Positions 100 through 25,128 of a stretch of 37,189 bases of DNA are shown piece after piece; positions within the stretch are counted from its first letter, which is position 1; every line of letters begins with the position of its first letter. Below the pieces are notes generated by a model that saw only the letters and a program-made list of their open reading frames with translations, searched no databases and was not told the DNA's origin. The position numbers and the translations under genes are program-made. The DNA is from an uncultured Desulfobulbaceae bacterium (GTDB lineage: Bacteria; Desulfobacterota; Desulfobulbia; Desulfobulbales; Desulfobulbaceae), in NCBI GenBank assembly GCA_945787305.1, contig CALZIH010000001.1, forward strand, positions 1 to 37,189, read 5' to 3'.

Positions 100-152
100 G
101 ACAACTCATAGCCGGTTTATAATATTATTTGCTCTAATTCAGAATATGGAGC

Positions 153-196
153 GTAACATGTCTGTAGTCGGTGGCGAGGCATTTTGCGGTACCGAT
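153..196 (+). repeat. Dispersed hairpin repeat, copy 1
   Basis: The core GTCGGTGGCGAGGC is at 167-180. It is followed by a T-rich stretch and then ACCGA at 191-195, which pairs with TCGGT at 168-172. The same core and layout recur at 2070-2115 and, on the other strand, at 13592-13651. This copy lies 115 bp upstream of ccoG. Confidence 0.6.
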
Positions 197-280
197 AAGT
201 AAGGCGTTGTGTAACCAATTGCAAGAGAAGGGAATTCTTCATATTGCTCTGCTCTTGTCTTAACAGTTAACGGTTTGGTA

Positions 281-311
281 CCGGGCGGGATTCTTCTCGC
301 CCGGTTTTTTT
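281..311 (+). terminator. Intrinsic terminator abutting the ccoG start codon
   Basis: A 10-bp stem (281-290 with 295-304, one G-U pair) closes a 4-base loop and is followed by seven T (305-311). The ATG of ccoG begins at the very next base. This is a textbook Rho-independent terminator. It most likely ends the transcript of the upstream gene, but its position means ccoG has no room for a normal ribosome binding site or its own promoter between the two. Confidence 0.75.
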
Positions 312-1553
312 ATGAAACAGAATAACCGACTCCTCGGTCCGTGGCGTCGACGCCTTCAATGGGCTTTTACCTTGCTTCTCCTGGGCCTTCCCTGGTTGGA
401 GGTCAACGGAAAAAGCCTGTTGCGCATCGACATCCCTGAACTCCGCCTTTTCCTATTCGGCCAGGTTCTGCGGATTGAGGAATTGTACCTTGTCCTGCTC
501 TTCACCTTAATTTTTATTCTCGGCTTCCTTCTGGTCACCGTTGTTTTTGGCCGAGTCTGGTGTGGTTGGTTCTGCCCACAGACCACCTTGTCGGATGTTG
601 CCGAATGGATGGCCAGGCATCTTGGTCTCAAGGTGCGACACCACAAGTTACATGGTTCTCTCTGGAGCAAAGTTCTGCTGCAGGGGGGCTATCTTTTGCT
701 CGCAGCTCTGGTGGCCTCCAATCTCCTCTGGTACTTCATCCCACCGAGACTGTATTTTGTTCGTCTCTTCGCCTTTGATTTACACTATGCCAGCTGGATC
801 ACCCTTGGCGTAACCGGCCTGATTGTTTACCTTGATCTAGCTCTGGTGCGGCGAATGATGTGCAGAGATTTCTGCCCTTACGGACGCTTCCAGACCGCTC
901 TTGTCGACAAGTCGACATTGACCTTGCATCTCCCGGAAACTGAATTGGAGCATTGCATAGAATGCAGTTCGTGTGTGCGCACCTGCCCGATGGGAATCGA
1001 CATCCGACACGGTTACCAGGTGGAATGCATCAACTGTGGCCGTTGTCTTGATGCCTGCCGCAAGGTAATGGAAAAACGTAACCGACCGGGACTCATTCGC
1101 TACACCTTTGGCTTGCATGGAGAGAGCGTAAAAGGGCTGCTGAATCCACGGACCCTCCTCATAGGTTTGGCAATGCTAGCTTTGCTGGTGATTTTATCCA
1201 TCGCCTTGGTCGAGCGCCCGGCTGCATCCCTTAAGGTCGCCGTATCGCATACAGTCCCATCACGAGAACTGGCAGATGGTCGAATGGGCACCTTTTTTAA
1301 TGCATGGGTAAATAATCGCAGCCAGGAGACAACGGTTTATACCCTGCATGCCCGTCAAAAAGATTCAGGCGGTGCACTTCCTCTTAAGGGGCAGGTACGG
1401 GCCGAAATGGGTGCCGGGGAGAACCGGCGCCTCGACTTCGTCTTGGTGGCGCCGAACGCAGAGCCTCTGACTGTTGAATTCGTACTGGTCGATGGAGACG
1501 GGCAAGAGTTATCGGTTGCCGAAGCATATGTTGGAATAACTCATTCAAAGTGA
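312..1553 (+). CDS. ccoG: CcoG/FixG/RdxA-type polyferredoxin for cbb3 oxidase assembly
   Basis: This 413-aa membrane ferredoxin matches the CcoG (FixG) family, which reduces copper for delivery to the cbb3 cytochrome oxidase. Hydrophobic helices lie near residues 17-28, 55-80, 120-145 and 160-180, and one follows the ferredoxin part at about 283-300. Two CxxxC sites (WCGWFCPQ at 83-90, CRDFCPYG at 184-191) are typical of the family. Two [4Fe-4S] clusters are predicted from C215/C218/C221/C225 and C239/C242/C245/C249. The C-terminal 100 residues form the periplasmic Ig-like FixG domain. fixH follows after 4 bp. No Shine-Dalgarno is visible because seven T precede the ATG, and the upstream in-frame sequence back to a stop at 261-263 has no ATG, GTG or TTG. 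Confidence 0.93.
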   Translation: MKQNNRLLGPWRRRLQWAFTLLLLGLPWLEVNGKSLLRIDIPELRLFLFGQVLRIEELYLVLLFTLIFILGFLLVTVVFGRVWCGWFCPQTTLSDVAEWMARHLGLKVRHHKLHGSLWSKVLLQGGYLLLAALVASNLLWYFIPPRLYFVRLFAFDLHYASWITLGVTGLIVYLDLALVRRMMCRDFCPYGRFQTALVDKSTLTLHLPETELEHCIECSSCVRTCPMGIDIRHGYQVECINCGRCLDACRKVMEKRNRPGLIRYTFGLHGESVKGLLNPRTLLIGLAMLALLVILSIALVERPAASLKVAVSHTVPSRELADGRMGTFFNAWVNNRSQETTVYTLHARQKDSGGALPLKGQVRAEMGAGENRRLDFVLVAPNAEPLTVEFVLVDGDGQELSVAEAYVGITHSK

Positions 1554-1557
1554 CAGT

Positions 1558-2019
1558 ATGACTGAACCCAGAAAAAAGAATGTCTACCCGCTAATGATAC
1601 TGCTGATGATCGGCGGGTTTATCCTTTTCTTAGCCTGGTCTGCATTTCAGGCCGCCGGCCTTGGCAGCAAAGTCACCGATCCCGACTATTACAGCAAGGG
1701 GTTGAAATACAATACCACACAGGTTGAGAAACGGGCAGCAGAGGTCCTTGGCTGGAACGTTGAGACCCGGCTCAAGGGACGTAAGCTTGAAATTCGTCTC
1801 ACTGACCAGAAGGGTGAGGACGTTACAGGTGCGGGCGGTTCGCTCTATCTGGCAATTCCCGGTACAGCTGAGAATATTCACCTGCCCCTGCAGGAGGTCA
1901 CTTCCGGCCTATACAAGGTCAGTTTCAAGGACAACATTAGCGGCTCTATCCAGGCTCGTCTTGAACTGGAGCGGGAAGGCGCGCGGCTTTATCGGTTGTT
2001 GTTGCTCAACCTTGATTGA
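1558..2019 (+). CDS. ccoH: FixH/CcoH family protein
   Basis: The 153-aa protein has one N-terminal membrane helix (about residues 11-32) and a soluble periplasmic beta-rich domain. The sequence just after the helix (DPDYYSKGLKYN) is characteristic of FixH, with its conserved YY and the following KGL. CcoH is needed for stable assembly of cbb3 oxidase. The gene starts 4 bp after the ccoG stop, so the two are surely cotranscribed. The short N-terminus (MTEPRKKN) before the helix suggests a cytoplasmic N-terminus. The family and order ccoG-ccoH-ccoI-ccoS are standard for this cluster. Confidence 0.9.
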   Translation: MTEPRKKNVYPLMILLMIGGFILFLAWSAFQAAGLGSKVTDPDYYSKGLKYNTTQVEKRAAEVLGWNVETRLKGRKLEIRLTDQKGEDVTGAGGSLYLAIPGTAENIHLPLQEVTSGLYKVSFKDNISGSIQARLELEREGARLYRLLLLNLD

Positions 2020-2069
2020 CTCTTAAGAAATTCAAAACGCCCTCTGCACAGTACTGAAATTCAATGAAT

Positions 2070-2115
2070 GTTAACCTTTCCGCAGTCGGTGGCGCGGCTT
2101 TTGTGACACCGACAA
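2070..2115 (+). repeat. Dispersed hairpin repeat, copy 2
   Basis: GTCGGTG at 2085-2091 pairs perfectly with CACCGAC at 2107-2113 around a loop that begins GCGCGGCTTTTG. The flank TTAACCTTTCCGC before the stem matches the flank of copy 3 at 13592-13651. The copy sits in the fixH-ccoI gap and ends about 50 bp before the probable ccoI start. There is no T-run after the stem, so it is not a normal terminator. Confidence 0.65.
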
Positions 2116-2163
2116 TCTTTGATAGCTGGAAATGACCATGATTTCCGTGATGCTTTATATCGA

Positions 2164-10886: not shown

Positions 10887-13058
10887 TTAGTCTCCGTCTT
10901 TCGCTTGGGTGTTGGTAGAGTCCTCAGGGACACTTGTCTCCTTTTTGGATCTGTGCAAGAGGGCATGGTCAAATTGAACAACACGGTTACGTCCTTCCTC
11001 TTTGGCGTGGTATAATGCAATATCGGCAAGCTTAAATGCTTCCCATATTCCCTGGTCCGGTGCTTCCGGGAAATTGGCGATGCCGATAGACATGGTCATT
11101 CGGATGGTGTGACCAGGGATTCGGAATTTATACTGTTGCACTTCTTTTCTGATTCGCTCCGCCATTTCCCGCGAGGTTTCCTGACCACTGTCAAGCAAAA
11201 GAATCATAAATTCCTCTCCACCAAAGCGAATCACCATGTCGGCTTCACGAACGGCATTGAGGAGTATTTTTGCCAACTGTATTAACACTTTGTCCCCGGC
11301 ATCGTGACCGTAGGTGTCATTAACGTCTTTGAAGTGGTCCAGGTCACACATCAAAACGCAAATGCTGCTGTTTCTTCGTTTAATGCCGGAGACCATCCGG
11401 TCAAGGTTGTTTTCAAGATAGTGCCGGTTGTAGAGGCCGGTCAGTTGGTCTTCCGTTGCCATGATCTTGAGTCGATTGGCGAGGCGCTTGGCCTGGAGGA
11501 CAGGCAGTGCTTCGGCAATGTAATGGCGAGCCTGGGTAAGGGCTTGCAGAGCGTTTCGTTGTTCCTCTTCGCTTAAACCGGGCAGAAAGACAAATTGAAC
11601 AATGCCTATTATCTGCCCGCTGACCTGCATGGGAACACAAACATAGCGTATTTGTTCCCCAAGGGGAAAAAAGGAGCAGGTGTGGGGATCGGAAAAGGAA
11701 GAGACCATTGCTCCTGTGCGCCTGGCTCGGCAGTCTTCATTGAGGCTGACTTCAGGGATTCCCTGGAAGTTGTCTTCAAGGTGCCGCAGGATGGAAACCA
11801 TCTCTTTCTTGTTTTCCAATGCTTCAAAAATAATGAAGTTTTTCAGGTGGAGTTTGTAGTAGAAGGTCCGTGCCAGACGTTGGTAAATTTCATCGCTGGT
11901 ATCATCGGCTTCGACAGCCTGACGAAAGACTGCCAGCTCGCGTAAACGTTTTAAGAGGTTTTCAATGGCGGTGGCGACCTGGCCGATTTCATCCTGTCTG
12001 CCATCGGTCATGGAGGTAAGCAGATCGGAAAATTCTCCTTCAAACTCACTCTCTTTACGCAGGCCTGTCAAGATGCGAGTCATCTTTTGCAGCAGATCAG
12101 AAAAAGCTAACAGGGGCTTGACCATGGACTGGTTAAGAAGAAGGGCAATCAGTGCCAGCATAAAGGCCGCTAGCACAAGGCTGATGGCCATGAAAATCAA
12201 GTTGTTTCTGGCTAGTCTCAGAACCGAATCCATTGTCGTTGATGACGATTCGGCTTGGGTAATCGAAGCGGAAGCAATATTTGTCTTGATGTCGACGATT
12301 ATCTTTTCGATTTCATTCTTGGTTGCCAGCGTTTCACCGCGGATGTTAATAATGGCGGTAACGGTTTGCTTAAGATCGGAGAAGTTTTCCAGAATGTTGT
12401 CGATGAATTTTTGCTGTTCAGCCGGAAGTTGCTGGGCAATGTTTTTTAATTCGTTTTCAGTGGCGTTAAAAAGCGCTTCATATTCCTGGACAGTCCGTTG
12501 CAGCTTCTTGGGTTCACTGGTCAACAGAACCGTATTGTAGAGATGATGATGCTTCAGGCAGGTGTCGGAGGTCAGGTTCTGGATCTGAAAAATGAATTGC
12601 GCACCTGCAGATTGTAGTAATCGATCGGTTGCCTGGACAATATTTCGTTCTGCCCGAAATATCTCATCGTCTTTACCACGCAAGTCACCTGTTCGTTTTT
12701 GCAGGATCAGCAGTTTTTTTCGAAACGTTTGCACTTGATCCTTTATTTCTGCAGACAATGTGTGCTGTAGTGTGTTGATCTTGGAAAGAATATTGTTGAA
12801 GGTATCAGTTTTGCCTGAGTGCATATACAGGGGGAGGCCTGCTTCAATTTCTCTCAGGAGCTGGGTGTTGGCAAAATTATTTTTCAGGTTGTCCTGCAAA
12901 TCGATGGCCGTTTGTTGCAGGGCATTTTCCCGCTGGTTGAACTGCCGGATACGCCATGTACTCAAACCGCCCAGCAGAAGCATGGATACGGTAGCGCTGA
13001 TAATAATTGCCCGTAGCTGAGTACGTAAGGTCCAGCGACCTTTTCGTTCAACAGGCAT
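10887..13058 (-). CDS. Membrane diguanylate cyclase (sensor-HAMP-GAF-GGDEF)
   Basis: The 723-aa protein makes c-di-GMP from two GTP. It has a membrane helix at about 18-36, a large helical periplasmic sensor region (37-285), a second helix (about 287-308), a HAMP domain (309-370), a GAF domain (about 385-515) and a GGDEF domain (540-700). The active site reads RFGGEEF (611-617), with metal-binding CDLDHF (571-576). The inhibitory I-site RxxD is present as R604-D607, five residues before GGEEF, so product inhibition is expected. The GAF domain contains several cysteines (C443, C461, C474) that could bind a cofactor. The start ATG at 13058 is preceded by a pyrimidine-rich stretch with no Shine-Dalgarno, so the start is less sure than the frame. 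Confidence 0.92.
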   Translation of the reverse strand: MPVERKGRWTLRTQLRAIIISATVSMLLLGGLSTWRIRQFNQRENALQQTAIDLQDNLKNNFANTQLLREIEAGLPLYMHSGKTDTFNNILSKINTLQHTLSAEIKDQVQTFRKKLLILQKRTGDLRGKDDEIFRAERNIVQATDRLLQSAGAQFIFQIQNLTSDTCLKHHHLYNTVLLTSEPKKLQRTVQEYEALFNATENELKNIAQQLPAEQQKFIDNILENFSDLKQTVTAIINIRGETLATKNEIEKIIVDIKTNIASASITQAESSSTTMDSVLRLARNNLIFMAISLVLAAFMLALIALLLNQSMVKPLLAFSDLLQKMTRILTGLRKESEFEGEFSDLLTSMTDGRQDEIGQVATAIENLLKRLRELAVFRQAVEADDTSDEIYQRLARTFYYKLHLKNFIIFEALENKKEMVSILRHLEDNFQGIPEVSLNEDCRARRTGAMVSSFSDPHTCSFFPLGEQIRYVCVPMQVSGQIIGIVQFVFLPGLSEEEQRNALQALTQARHYIAEALPVLQAKRLANRLKIMATEDQLTGLYNRHYLENNLDRMVSGIKRRNSSICVLMCDLDHFKDVNDTYGHDAGDKVLIQLAKILLNAVREADMVIRFGGEEFMILLLDSGQETSREMAERIRKEVQQYKFRIPGHTIRMTMSIGIANFPEAPDQGIWEAFKLADIALYHAKEEGRNRVVQFDHALLHRSKKETSVPEDSTNTQAKDGD

Positions 13059-13706
13059 GGCAGGGGAGGGTGGCAGACATGGTATTGTTCATAGTATTCG
13101 CAAGTGATGCATTCCGATAAATATGCTTGCACGCAAGGGATAGTTATTGTTTTTCGTGTTTTTGAGTGGCATTGGACAATGCAGATTACCAATTGCTACG
13201 GCTTTTTACCCCTGCAGCGCAAGGATTACTGACCCTGTGCACAGGTTTAACTATACCACGCCGAAGAAATAATTAGAATGGTTAGGGGTGAAAAAAAGGA
13301 AAAACAGTGACGCTGTGTTACCTTGGGGCGACAGGTCGGGCTTTGTGCAACTGGTAAAGGGCTTGTTTTAAAAGAAGAAAACCTTTCCGGCAGGGAGTTT
13401 GAGCTCGATTTTGCAGGTTGTTCTTTTTTGTTATGACAGGTTTATGTCAATGATCAATGGGGGCGGCATAAGGTGAATTCAATCTTGGTATAGTGGTCAT
13501 ATACTTTCTAATTCAAGGCACCCTCCATCGTAGTCAAAATATATCCTGAGTAATCGATCTAAATTTTGACGCGTGTTTATCTGCATGATATGTCTGTCGG
13601 TGTCGTAGTGTCGTACAAAGCCTCGCCACCGACGGCGGAAAGGTTGTAACTTTTTGTGTTTTCGTAGATTGCGAACGGCGATTTGGATTTTTTACGAGTC
13701 CATCAA
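13059..13706. other. 648-bp intergenic region holding repeat copy 3
   Basis: This lies between two - strand genes. It contains one copy of the dispersed hairpin repeat (13592-13651). The rest, including the expected promoter of the cyclase gene, shows no open frame with recognisable content. A purine run near 13290-13305 (GAAAAAAAGGAAAAAC) stands out, but I cannot assign it a role. Confidence 0.5.
13592..13651 (-). repeat. Dispersed hairpin repeat, copy 3
   Basis: Read on the - strand, it has the flank ACCTTTCCGCC, the core GTCGGTGGCGAGGC (13633-13620) and the closing CACCGAC (13602-13596). It is the same element as at 2070-2115, with a longer loop and a 2-base difference in the flank. It lies 50-110 bp downstream of the Sel1 gene, in the same orientation relative to transcription as the other two copies. 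Confidence 0.65.
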
Positions 13707-14309
13707 CTATTCCCGTCTTATTTTTTCGACATCTGTGGTGATCTCGATTTGACCGACGAGGTGATTGTACATTTCTGAGAGTTGATCGCCTTCACCGGCA
13801 TTCAGCATCTGTACTATCTCCTGTAGTTTTTCTGCTGCACCGGGATAATGTTGTTTGCTTGCCAGTTGCAGCCATGCTGCTGCAAGAATCTGTTTGTCTC
13901 TTTCTTTTTCATTGTCCAGGTACAGGATGGCCAGGAGGTACTGAGCCATTGCCCAACCTTGTCTTGCCGCCTGCCCGTACAATTTTTCGGCCTTCTGTAT
14001 ATCTTGTTTTACACTGTTGCCAAAGGCATATTTCATACCGAGATACAGACAAGCTGCGGGTAAGTTTTGCTGAGCCGATCTGGTGAGCCAGAGAATCGCT
14101 TGTTGGCGGTCACCTGCAATGAGGTTGCCTTCGTCATACATCATGGCCAGGCTGAATTGGGCTTGCGCATCCCCCTGGTTGGCAAGAGCAATAGTTTCGG
14201 CGATCAGGTCATCATATTCGCCATTGCTCGTGTAGCCATTCGTCACAACGAGACAGAAGAGGAAGAAGACTAATAAGATTCGGTTTATGGTTTTTGCCAG
14301 GGAGTTCAT
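13707..14309 (-). CDS. Secreted Sel1-like/TPR repeat protein
   Basis: From ATG 14309 the product is 200 aa, with a signal peptide or membrane anchor (about residues 8-24) and three to four Sel1-like repeats (GDAQAQFSLAMMYDEGN, LPAACLYLGMKYAFGN, AMAQYLLAILYLDNEK). Sel1 proteins act as scaffolds in the periplasm or envelope. Alternative starts in frame are ATG 14318, ATG 14354 and a TTG at 14396 that overlaps the stop of the ParB-like gene. A perfect 40-bp palindrome covers the 14309 and 14318 starts. In mRNA it would fold the start codon into a stem, so the real start or its control is uncertain. It is the last gene of the run beginning at the transglycosylase. Confidence 0.75.
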   Translation of the reverse strand: MNSLAKTINRILLVFFLFCLVVTNGYTSNGEYDDLIAETIALANQGDAQAQFSLAMMYDEGNLIAGDRQQAILWLTRSAQQNLPAACLYLGMKYAFGNSVKQDIQKAEKLYGQAARQGWAMAQYLLAILYLDNEKERDKQILAAAWLQLASKQHYPGAAEKLQEIVQMLNAGEGDQLSEMYNHLVGQIEITTDVEKIRRE

Positions 14310-14337
14310 TTTTCGCATGCGAAAAATGAACTCCCTG
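14298..14337. repeat. Perfect 40-bp palindrome over the start of the Sel1 gene
   Basis: Bases 14298-14337 equal their own reverse complement with no mismatch. Each half is 20 bp and the centre is GCATGC. It contains the two nearest ATG starts of the Sel1-like gene on the - strand. As RNA it would form a stem of about 18 bp with a 4-base loop. Confidence 0.9.
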
Positions 14338-14392
14338 TGGGATCGGTTTGTCATTTGATTTGGTGAGTGAAGAACGTTTGCTGGACCGAAAT

Positions 14393-16129
14393 TCAATTAA
14401 GCAGTTTGAGCAATTCGTCAAGGTGGTGTTTGTCGTTAAGCAGCGTTTTCAGGTTTGCTATTGTTTGCTCTGCATTTGCCTCTTGTAAGCGTACCTGGAG
14501 GGTAACTGCTTTTTTTGTTTTTTTGCCTGTCGGCGTAATGTTGAAATCTTGCTTGTTCGCTTTTAGGCCAAAAATATCGTTGCGTAATTCCTCTACCTTG
14601 CTGTTGAAGGCATGGATATTTCCCTGGGGTTGTTTTCCCTTTTGCTGTTGAAGCAAACGGATGAATGTACTGGCCTTTTGTTTTGAATCGATAGACTTCT
14701 CCAATACACTTTGAACCACTGTTGAACCGATTGCCTTTTTCAGTTGTGGGTGAATATCTGATAATAATTTATTGATCTGTAACAGCTGTGGTCGTGTTGG
14801 AGCAAGAGGCTTGATGATTTCCAGATACAGCGCGTCCCGGTCAGAGGGGTCTCGCAGGGGGGCAAGTATTTCTGCTGCAATGGAGAACTGTAAGGTATCA
14901 TTAATTACATCGGAGAGCATCTCGGCTGATTCTCCCCGTTCTCTGATTTGATTAAGTTTTCTGTATTTATGGATGGTGGACTGTGAGACTTTTTTTCCCG
15001 GTTTTCCTATGCCCAGGGTTTCACCAAACTGATCGGCCAGGCGGGCATTATTCAACCCCATGTCTTTGCTTGCCGATTCTAGAAAGTTTCCGATCTCAAT
15101 GGGGTTAAGGTTACGGCGTTTAGTGTTCTCGGCAAGAGAGATGTTGAAAAAATCTTCGGTGGTAAAGTCTTCCTCATTATAGACCTTTGCCTCTATCCAT
15201 TGCCAGCCCAGGCGACGGATTGCCTGGTATCTCCGGAACCCACAGAGGATTTTGTATCTGCCATCTGTTTTTTGTAAAAGCACCAGCGGGTGGAGGAGGC
15301 CATTTTTCTTTATGGAACGGGATAGTTCATCGATATAGGCTTCTCTGGTTAAATCATGTGAGGTATCGTCACCATGAAGGCGGAAAATATATCGCAGATC
15401 CAGCTTACTGACCGTATCAATACCGTTTGTTGCAATTCGTCTGACCAGGGGCATGGATTCGGCAAACAGTGAAAAGACCTGCGCAAGTTTAATAGCTGTC
15501 TGTCCTGCCTGTTGCTCATCGATGAGTAACCCTCCGTTAAGGGTGAGCAGAAGAGAACGGACACTTGGATCAAAAAAACCATCGACATGGTTTTTTTGTC
15601 GAAACACCTGGTTCAAGCTGTAAGATTCGCGACCACAGAGAGGTGATGCTGTATCGGCAAGAGCGGTTGTAAGTCCTTGATCTTCTGTGGCCACGCGTAT
15701 TTTGGTAAGAAGTGATGGCGCAATGGTAGGGCGATGCGGTCTATCATCCACGCCACGCTCACCCTGTCCATAGCCGAAAATGATGTCTGCCTGGGGGGCG
15801 TTATCCTCTGCTCTCTGGAGAATCAGGACAAGCGGCAAGAGATTGTTTTGGCTGATTTCTTTTTGAAATTGTTGTATTCTCAATAGAAAATCATTGGTCA
15901 CTTTTTTCCGTTGTCGTATTGCCCTGATATCTGCCATGTCAACAATGCGCTGTTTATATTTGGCATTAATGACGGTGTAGCAATGGAGATGCTCAGCAAG
16001 AAGGCGTCCGAGAACGGCCAGTGGAGAGGCTGTTTCTGTTGCATTCTCCCTGTGGGCGCAGGGTGCAATCACAAGGAGATTATTTGTTCCAAGCAGGGTG
16101 TCTATTGCCGGTTTATGTGGCTGATTCAA
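14393..16129 (-). CDS. ParB-like protein with an unusual N-terminal domain
   Basis: The 578-aa product starts at TTG 16129, which has AGGGGG six bases upstream and overlaps the YihY gene by 17 bp. The frame is open to another TTG at 16207. Residues about 265-345 form a ParB N-terminal nuclease/CTPase-like domain with GFRRYQA (usual form GERRxRA) and ENTKRRNLNPIE. A helix-turn-helix-like part follows (355-395), with KVSQSTIHKYRKL. The C-terminal 180 residues are helical and unassigned. The first 220 residues are not part of any usual ParB. They weakly resemble the N-formylglutamate amidohydrolase fold (LLVIAP near 18-23, FGYGQ at 118-122, CGRESYSLNQ at 165-174), but the usual PHGG motif reads PCAH, so activity is doubtful. 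No ParA gene is nearby, which argues against chromosome segregation. Confidence 0.75.
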   Translation of the reverse strand: MNQPHKPAIDTLLGTNNLLVIAPCAHRENATETASPLAVLGRLLAEHLHCYTVINAKYKQRIVDMADIRAIRQRKKVTNDFLLRIQQFQKEISQNNLLPLVLILQRAEDNAPQADIIFGYGQGERGVDDRPHRPTIAPSLLTKIRVATEDQGLTTALADTASPLCGRESYSLNQVFRQKNHVDGFFDPSVRSLLLTLNGGLLIDEQQAGQTAIKLAQVFSLFAESMPLVRRIATNGIDTVSKLDLRYIFRLHGDDTSHDLTREAYIDELSRSIKKNGLLHPLVLLQKTDGRYKILCGFRRYQAIRRLGWQWIEAKVYNEEDFTTEDFFNISLAENTKRRNLNPIEIGNFLESASKDMGLNNARLADQFGETLGIGKPGKKVSQSTIHKYRKLNQIRERGESAEMLSDVINDTLQFSIAAEILAPLRDPSDRDALYLEIIKPLAPTRPQLLQINKLLSDIHPQLKKAIGSTVVQSVLEKSIDSKQKASTFIRLLQQQKGKQPQGNIHAFNSKVEELRNDIFGLKANKQDFNITPTGKKTKKAVTLQVRLQEANAEQTIANLKTLLNDKHHLDELLKLLN

Positions 16130-24264: not shown

Positions 24265-25128
24265 ACATGGTACTCGATTTGTGCACAGGCTTTGCTTACG
24301 GGATCGTACAGGATTTTGCGGATAATTTGAGTGATCTCATGTAATTTATAAATATATCATTTTGTTTCGATTTGACATCTGCTATACTCATAGACGGAAA
24401 GGGGGCAGTATCCTTTTCAGGTTGGACAAACGAATACATTTCGTTGCCGAATCCAGATGATCTCTTGCAAGTCATTGGCATGGCTTGAAAAGGAATCTTG
24501 GTCCGGTGAGCGTGCTGACTCGGAATATAGAGTCGTTAGATAGATTTTTTTGGGTTCCCAGCGCAGTTGGTGATTAATGAAGTATTGAGCCAACTCTCAT
24601 GATGAGGGCAGCCATAGTGGCGGAGAATGGAAATCTTCATTGATTACCAGGAAACGGCACGGGCATTGCCCACCTAATTATATTAGGTTTAATCATTTCG
24701 TTGACACGGCAGGGCGGGGATTCTTTTGCAACAACAGTGACTTATCGCTGTGTTTATATAGAGCCGAGCCGGCATCTCGAAGTTAGGGCTACGGGTGAGC
24801 ACTTAGGGCGTAAGTAAGCCCGGTGAATGAAAGAGAATACTGATGCAATCAGGTTTGCCATATATGAGTAATCCACCAGGTAGGCTGTTTGTCGGGCAAT
24901 GGCTAATGGGTGTAAATCCCGTTATACATTCCGACTGTTGATAGCCTGTCGTTGAACAGTCCCGGGCCAATGAGGAGATTTCTTGTCTCCTGCTTCTCCG
25001 GTTCCGGACAATCAGACCACATCCCTCTTTGTCACCGTACCGTGTGAACTGGCTCGGCCTCTCTGTTTTTTCTCGCAGATTTTTGACCGGAGTACTGTGT
25101 CAGCTGCATAACATACAGGTGTCCACCA
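24265..25128. other. Long non-coding region before rny with several hairpins
   Basis: There is no credible coding frame in 860 bp. Inverted repeats seen: GGGCA/TGCCC (24661-24671) directly followed by ACCTAAT/ATTAGGT (24672-24688); a nested pair GGGCT 24786-24790 with AGCCC 24817-24821 around ACTTA/TAAGT (24801-24815); GACTGTT 24933-24939 with AACAGTC 24955-24961; and AGGAGA 24973-24978 with TCTCCT 24986-24991. TTGACA at 24701-24706 has no good -10 partner. The region may be a long structured rny leader or may contain another small RNA. I could not match it to a known riboswitch, tmRNA, RNase P or tRNA. Confidence 0.4.

Follow-up and report, generated by a model that had tools for sequence, protein, structure and literature searches.

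A probable 101-bp MITE family with an IS1182-like partner accounts for hairpin repeats beside cbb3 assembly genes in an uncultured Desulfobulbaceae bacterium

The hairpin repeats that lie before ccoG and ccoI in the window (the whole stretch of 37,189 nucleotides analysed here, from an uncultured Desulfobulbaceae bacterium) are very probably copies of a 101-bp non-autonomous MITE, which is probably moved by an IS1182-like transposase supplied in trans and which lies beside the cbb3 assembly genes incidentally. As expected of a MITE, the element is short, non-coding and multicopy, with terminal inverted repeats, a target-site duplication, an insert-free relative (an approximate one) and a partner IS with the same ends. 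It represents a MITE family that is new to the sources searched, with a probable IS1182-like mover; the family was not described in the literature searched by its end sequences and on MITEs with IS1182 or Desulfobulb. It should be noted that we infer from sequence both which transposase mobilises the element and any roles that its hairpin and central IHF-like motif may play.

The earlier note described three hairpins with a common core, and a pattern search of the window located GTCGGTGGCGMGGC with 0 mismatches at each of the three places, 167-180(+), 2085-2098(+) and 13620-13633(-). The closing ACCGA(C) arm is likewise as described there, and the ACCTTTCCGC flank said to be shared by two hairpins is found in the second and third copies. 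Across the draft assembly of this genome (3.61 Mb, 461 contigs), GTCGGTGGCGMGGC with at most one mismatch occurs at 147 sites, compared with 6 for a reversed control pattern, indicating that its recurrence is not due to chance and that the window's three hairpins are just a few members of a large family. The hairpins are real, but their extent had been missed, each being only the 3' end of a repeat of about 101 bp: reading the flanks of 30 copies placed the core in the 3' part of a 101-bp repeat with the full consensus GATGGACTCGTAAAAAGTCCAAAACGCCGTTTGCACTGTACGGAAATACAATGAGTTATAACCTTTCCGCC-GTCGGTGGCGAGGCTTTTTACGACACCGAC. A sequence-only model of the repeat (R1) was built from 24 copies, which were picked by their core, so that core conservation within the seed set is partly circular; later copy counts take in all model matches and not just the seeds. 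R1 gave 153 matches across the window's genome (about 153 copies), 3 of them within the window, and this whole-genome count bears out the suggestion of a mobile hairpin family. The left end of the element is the inverted repeat GATGGACTCGTAAAAAGTC and the right end, read inward, is GTCGGTGTCGTAAAAAGCC; by inspection the two are identical at about 14 of 19 positions, and both carry TCGTAAAAAG in the same register. The third window copy, which sits between a GGDEF gene (10887-13058) and a Sel1-repeat gene (13707-14396), has an 8-bp internal repeat, CGACACTA, close to its right end.

Copies of the 101-bp element in the window, with their right-end hairpins and flanking duplications
Feature	Position	Strand	Remarks
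Copy 1, left target-site duplication AAATAA	94..99	+	Holds TAA stop of preceding gene; 5/6 match to 197-202
Copy 1, decayed full-length, 97 bp	100..196	+	Gap between preceding gene and ccoG; R1 105-195, 28.8 bits, E 3.7e-8
Copy 1, right-end hairpin	167..196	+	
Copy 1, right target-site duplication AAGTAA	197..202	+	Read from sequence
Copy 2, left target-site duplication AACCTT	2008..2013	+	TC precedes (target TC|AANNNT); 5/6 match to 2114-2119
Copy 2, 100 bp	2014..2113	+	Between ccoH and ccoI; R1 2015-2113, 81.8 bits, E 1e-24
Copy 2, right-end hairpin	2085..2113	+	
Copy 2, right target-site duplication AATCTT	2114..2119	+	Read from sequence
Copy 3, 109 bp	13596..13704	-	R1 13608-13704, 89.4 bits, E 4.6e-27; end read from sequence
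Copy 3, right-end hairpin	13596..13633	-	
Copy 3, left duplication ATAGTT (minus-strand reading), decayed	13705..13710	-	3/6 match to 13590-13595 (AGACAT)

To characterise insertion, 0.96 Mb of the window's genome was sampled, yielding 123 full copies, 119 of them with both flanks. Length is exactly 101 bp in 98 of these 119, and 47 are bordered by a perfect direct duplication at k=6, other values of k lying near the shuffled level with little or no signal; when one base of tolerance is allowed, 53 of 119 have perfect 6-bp duplications against 3.5 expected from shuffles. The 62 non-tandem copies define the insertion target as TC|AAWNWT (A1 95%, A2 98%, T6 77%, T5 just 40%; left flank T 58%, C 58%). 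This target is polar, with A at position 2 in 98% of cases while its mirror position, 5, holds T in only 40%, and the perfect duplications occur in the forward form only in 19 cases and in the reverse form only in 1 (p=4e-5). Perfect AANNNT duplications were also found in G001, G003, G039, G081 and G203. Insertion by a tyrosine recombinase with a fixed 6-bp core was considered and rejected, since the 6 bp differ between copies.

Adjacent copies form arrays in which all 20 pairs are head-to-tail, with one common 6-bp duplication serving as a spacer of 6-7 bp. Tandem neighbours share 80.0% mean identity (12 pairs measured) and random pairs 79.7%, showing that neighbours are independent insertions; their origin as recombination duplicates was rejected on the same grounds. 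In the mechanism that we propose, an IS1182-like DDE transposase acting in trans would cleave both ends of the element and join them to TC|AAWNWT, duplicating 6 bp, and the polarity of the target would cause the element to land one way round relative to it. Insertion would leave AAWNWT at both edges, where later copies could enter in the same orientation, and repeated insertion at an edge would yield head-to-tail arrays that repeat every 107 bp. Such arrays require no further assumption beyond a polar target and its presence at both edges after each insertion.

The distribution of the element was surveyed with a two-end pattern, leaving a free gap of 55-85 bp, in 258 genomes of the order, 12 of which matched. 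Among the matches listed from these 12 genomes, 51 of 57 are exactly 101 bp long, and length is constant although interior identity is as low as 61-66% in G081, G061 and G039. The single match in G256, 110 bp long and with another interior, is doubtful, and outside the order just two of the sampled genomes of the phylum matched, again with different interiors. Several near-identical subfamilies with perfect duplications are present in G081, which suggests recent activity. Named records with the exact core come from metagenome assemblies of Desulfobulbaceae and other Deltaproteobacteria, and the plasmid, phage and viral collections contained no match to the element. The simplest inference from the fixed length is that the transposition complex requires a particular geometry.

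The window's genome encodes one intact transposase of the presumed partner family (575 aa, PF05598+PF13751, contig C255), which scores 164.8 bits (E 3e-48) against the IS1182 family NF033551; this is below the curated cut-off of 270, hence the name IS1182-like. D152, D355 and E478 are invariant in 8 transposases and, judging by position and local motif, are the putative catalytic DDE residues. The C255 IS has ends GATAACCTCGCGAAAAG and GATGATATCGCAAAAAC, several bases different from those of the element, and a copy of the 101-bp element lies at each of its outer edges in opposite orientation (G000:C255, L073 800-2900), each copy having a 6-bp duplication in common with the adjoining IS end. 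Homologues of the transposase occur in 29 of 243 genomes of the order, and intact IS copies of 1.88-1.96 kb were found in G169, G162, G032, G206 and G242, with ends like GATGG..TCGTAAAAAGT and 6-bp A....T duplications that include ATATGT, AAAATT, AACCTT, AACTTT and AAGGTT. In G169 the left end of the IS is identical to that of the element over 19 bp, in G081 the end variant GATGGTCTCG is common to IS and element, and G006 holds a degraded IS with a GATGGACTCGTAAAAAGT end. Sister species have other MITEs, of about 161-189 bp, with related ends and 6-bp A....T duplications; those of G006 and G007 (e.g., L052 201-390, L053 189-351) end in GATGAACTCGTAAAAAGTCC / GATGGCGTCGTAAAAACTTCGATC, and each of these genomes has dozens of matches to the ends. 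An inverted end pair 2.5 kb apart in G007:C222 was rejected as an autonomous element, as it encloses metabolic genes that seem ordinary when read from their translations.

The alternative that survives best, though we consider it unlikely, is a MITE moved by a different, unseen transposase that has asymmetric ends and a polar target and is not IS1182-like. Consistent with this, the polar TC|AAWNWT target and the hairpin right end are found in the element and not in the IS copies, the ends of the sole intact IS in the window's genome differ from those of the element, and many copies reside in genomes that lack an intact gene of the IS1182-like type: no such transposase was detected in G003, which has 18 right-end hairpin matches, and the only one in G081, where right-end matches number 127, is broken. 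Against it stand the G169 left end, the shared register of TCGTAAAAAG at both ends and the same 6-bp A....T duplication as in the IS; moreover, among the 29 G081 loci read (L262-L290) there was no longer element with these ends or with a hairpin right end. AA polarity was not seen in the IS copies or in the sister species' 161-189-bp MITEs, which indicates that the 101-bp element may use the IS1182-like enzyme differently, or may use another enzyme. Constant length, a polar target and a self-regenerated insertion site are the unusual points of the element, and we tentatively raise the possibility that it is an order-wide MITE lineage whose architecture is itself selected, comprising two non-equivalent ends, one of which bears a terminal hairpin, a spacing fixed at 101 bp around a central site of DNA bending, recognition of TC|AAWNWT in one direction, a self-regenerated target and head-to-tail stacking. 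If true, such a lineage would exemplify a separate, polar form of DDE transposition, whether by an IS1182-like or an unseen enzyme.

At the right end of the element GTCGGTG can pair with CACCGAC, the last 7 bases pairing about 23 bp inward. The seven stem pairs are 96% kept across genomes (shuffled 90%, maximum 95%), with two-sided changes at 77-96 (T-A to C-G) and 78-95 (G-C to T-A), and the hairpin is retained across genera; within the window's genome, stem changes are mostly confined to one arm. Retention across genera together with one-arm decay within a genome suggests that the hairpin plausibly belongs to the active master copies rather than serving every copy after its insertion. The earlier note had held that a structured family would be unsupported if the genome contained just three copies or if the stems varied without compensation; the copies number about 153, while the stems divide, one-arm decay in the genome speaking against such a family and the few compensatory changes across genera speaking for it. 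As single-strand DNA the consensus folds better than its shuffles (z -2.8), whereas the three window hairpins as RNA fold no better than theirs (z -0.75, -0.55, 0.03), and at the three places no Rfam covariance model matched even at E<=5. The element also has, at a fixed position near its centre, an IHF-like motif, WATCARNNNNTTR, which is perfect in 7 of 19 copies from other genomes, 5 of these from G081; it is suggestive in G081, where it is perfect, and in G001 and G003, where some copies have it perfect, but most copies from the window's genome have 2 mismatches, a level equalled by shuffles and thus not significant. We regard this predicted IHF site as a hypothesis.

The right-end hairpin, the high copy number and the intergenic placement also recall REP/BIME sequences, in which a REP-associated Y1 transposase copies a single-strand hairpin without target duplication, and the earlier note had called the repeats REP-like. 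Y1 transposase genes do occur in the window's genome (G000:C183, C56, C107 and C165; L291-L294), at least one of them RAYT-like (231 aa). A check for a REP-associated transposase returned these 4 Y1/RAYT hits, none with the element at its edges: two loci lack the element, and the other two have, respectively, a fragment and a copy of it at distances of about 0.9 kb and 0.8 kb. Exact 6-bp target duplications, paired terminal inverted repeats of DDE type and arrays that are all head-to-tail rather than alternating also argue against a REP origin, which we consider highly improbable.

The remaining evidence concerns the placement of the MITE copies. Of the 134 longer matches, 127 are intergenic, 7 partly overlap genes and 0 lie inside a predicted gene, although the gene caller was a simple custom one based on hexamers, by which a gene split by insertion would count as intergenic. 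With 3 copies in 37 kb, the window has nearly the average density of the genome, one per 23 kb. Two insertions occurred at stop codons, those of ccoH and of the gene before ccoG: the TGA of ccoH (2017-2019) lies inside copy 2 and is supplied by the element's first bases, GATTGA, and the TAA of the other gene lies within the duplicated AAATAA (94-99). In the relative G004, ccoH ends CTCAACTTATAA, whereas the window has CTCAACCTT followed by the element; G004 is a divergent relative, so its use as an insert-free site is approximate. The spacer from ccoG to ccoH in G004 (G004:C170 7507-7704, L085) is about 160 bases longer than that of the window. Elsewhere in the window, 24553-24724 (+) gives a 6S RNA-like match of 37.7 bits (E 2.6e-4) against a gathering threshold of 46.4 and is probably the genome's 6S RNA.

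The three window copies do share one orientation relative to transcription, as had been noted, but this does not hold genome-wide, where copies in tandem gaps are randomly oriented relative to their flanking genes (28 co-directional, 32 opposed). A regulatory RNA or DNA element of the cbb3 assembly genes (an attenuator, processing site or operator), as the earlier note had also entertained on finding copies directly before ccoG and ccoI, is the least credible reading, for although the stem is stable in isolation, this random orientation, the roughly 150 copies at unrelated loci, the absence of the element from the G004 ccoG-ccoH-ccoI cluster both upstream of ccoG and at ccoH/ccoI, the window hairpins that fold no better than shuffles, and a stem that in most of the genome's copies has decayed without compensation leave it without support. 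The cbb3 location of the copies is thus incidental, a matter of chance. Insertion nonetheless replaced the ccoH stop and lies in the cco cluster, and it may affect expression, though only as a secondary matter.

Explaining a regulatory-looking hairpin as a transposon insertion avoids a false account of cbb3 regulation and adds a high-copy Desulfobulbales MITE family with a probable IS partner and a target rule. With its constant length, polar target and self-regenerated insertion site, the element is also well suited to studying how target orientation is recognised by a DDE transposase and what keeps certain MITEs at one size.

Among known systems, RUP of pneumococcus (107 bp, 108 copies, intergenic, inserting near IS elements) resembles the 101-bp element as a short, intergenic, multicopy repeat whose terminal repeats are common to an autonomous IS, in that case IS630-Spn1, which is proposed to move RUP in trans (PMC2229807). 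RUP uses a TA target and an IS630-type enzyme (PMC2229807), whereas the element described here has a 6-bp AAWNWT duplication and a probable IS1182-like partner, and differs further in its polar target, order-wide fixed length and head-to-tail arrays of 107-bp period. The Correia/NEMIS elements of Neisseria are also short, multicopy MITEs with stem-loops, of about 107/155 bp, with many copies, stable stem-loops and an IHF site in the long form (PMC2229807, PMC10969869), and with terminal inverted repeats of 24 bp and TA at the termini (PMC2229807); in contrast, our element has two ends of unlike sequence, a 6-bp duplication and an IHF-like motif whose perfect form is confined to some lineages. 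The Chunjie MITE of Geobacter uraniireducens, from a related lineage of sulfur/iron reducers and likewise inserted in an operon, has terminal and direct repeats and is set apart by its description as longer and variable in length (178-235 bp) (PMC10969869). REP/BIME sequences share the hairpin and a number of copies above 100 per genome, but REPs alternate in orientation within BIMEs and are tied to Y1 transposases (PMC2817692), whereas the 101-bp element is arranged head-to-tail with a target duplication. Finally, the IS1182-like IS (NF033551, PF13751) has the same terminal repeat, register and 6-bp duplication as the element, and differs in being coding and 1.88-1.96 kb long, with no hairpin right end seen and no AA polarity.
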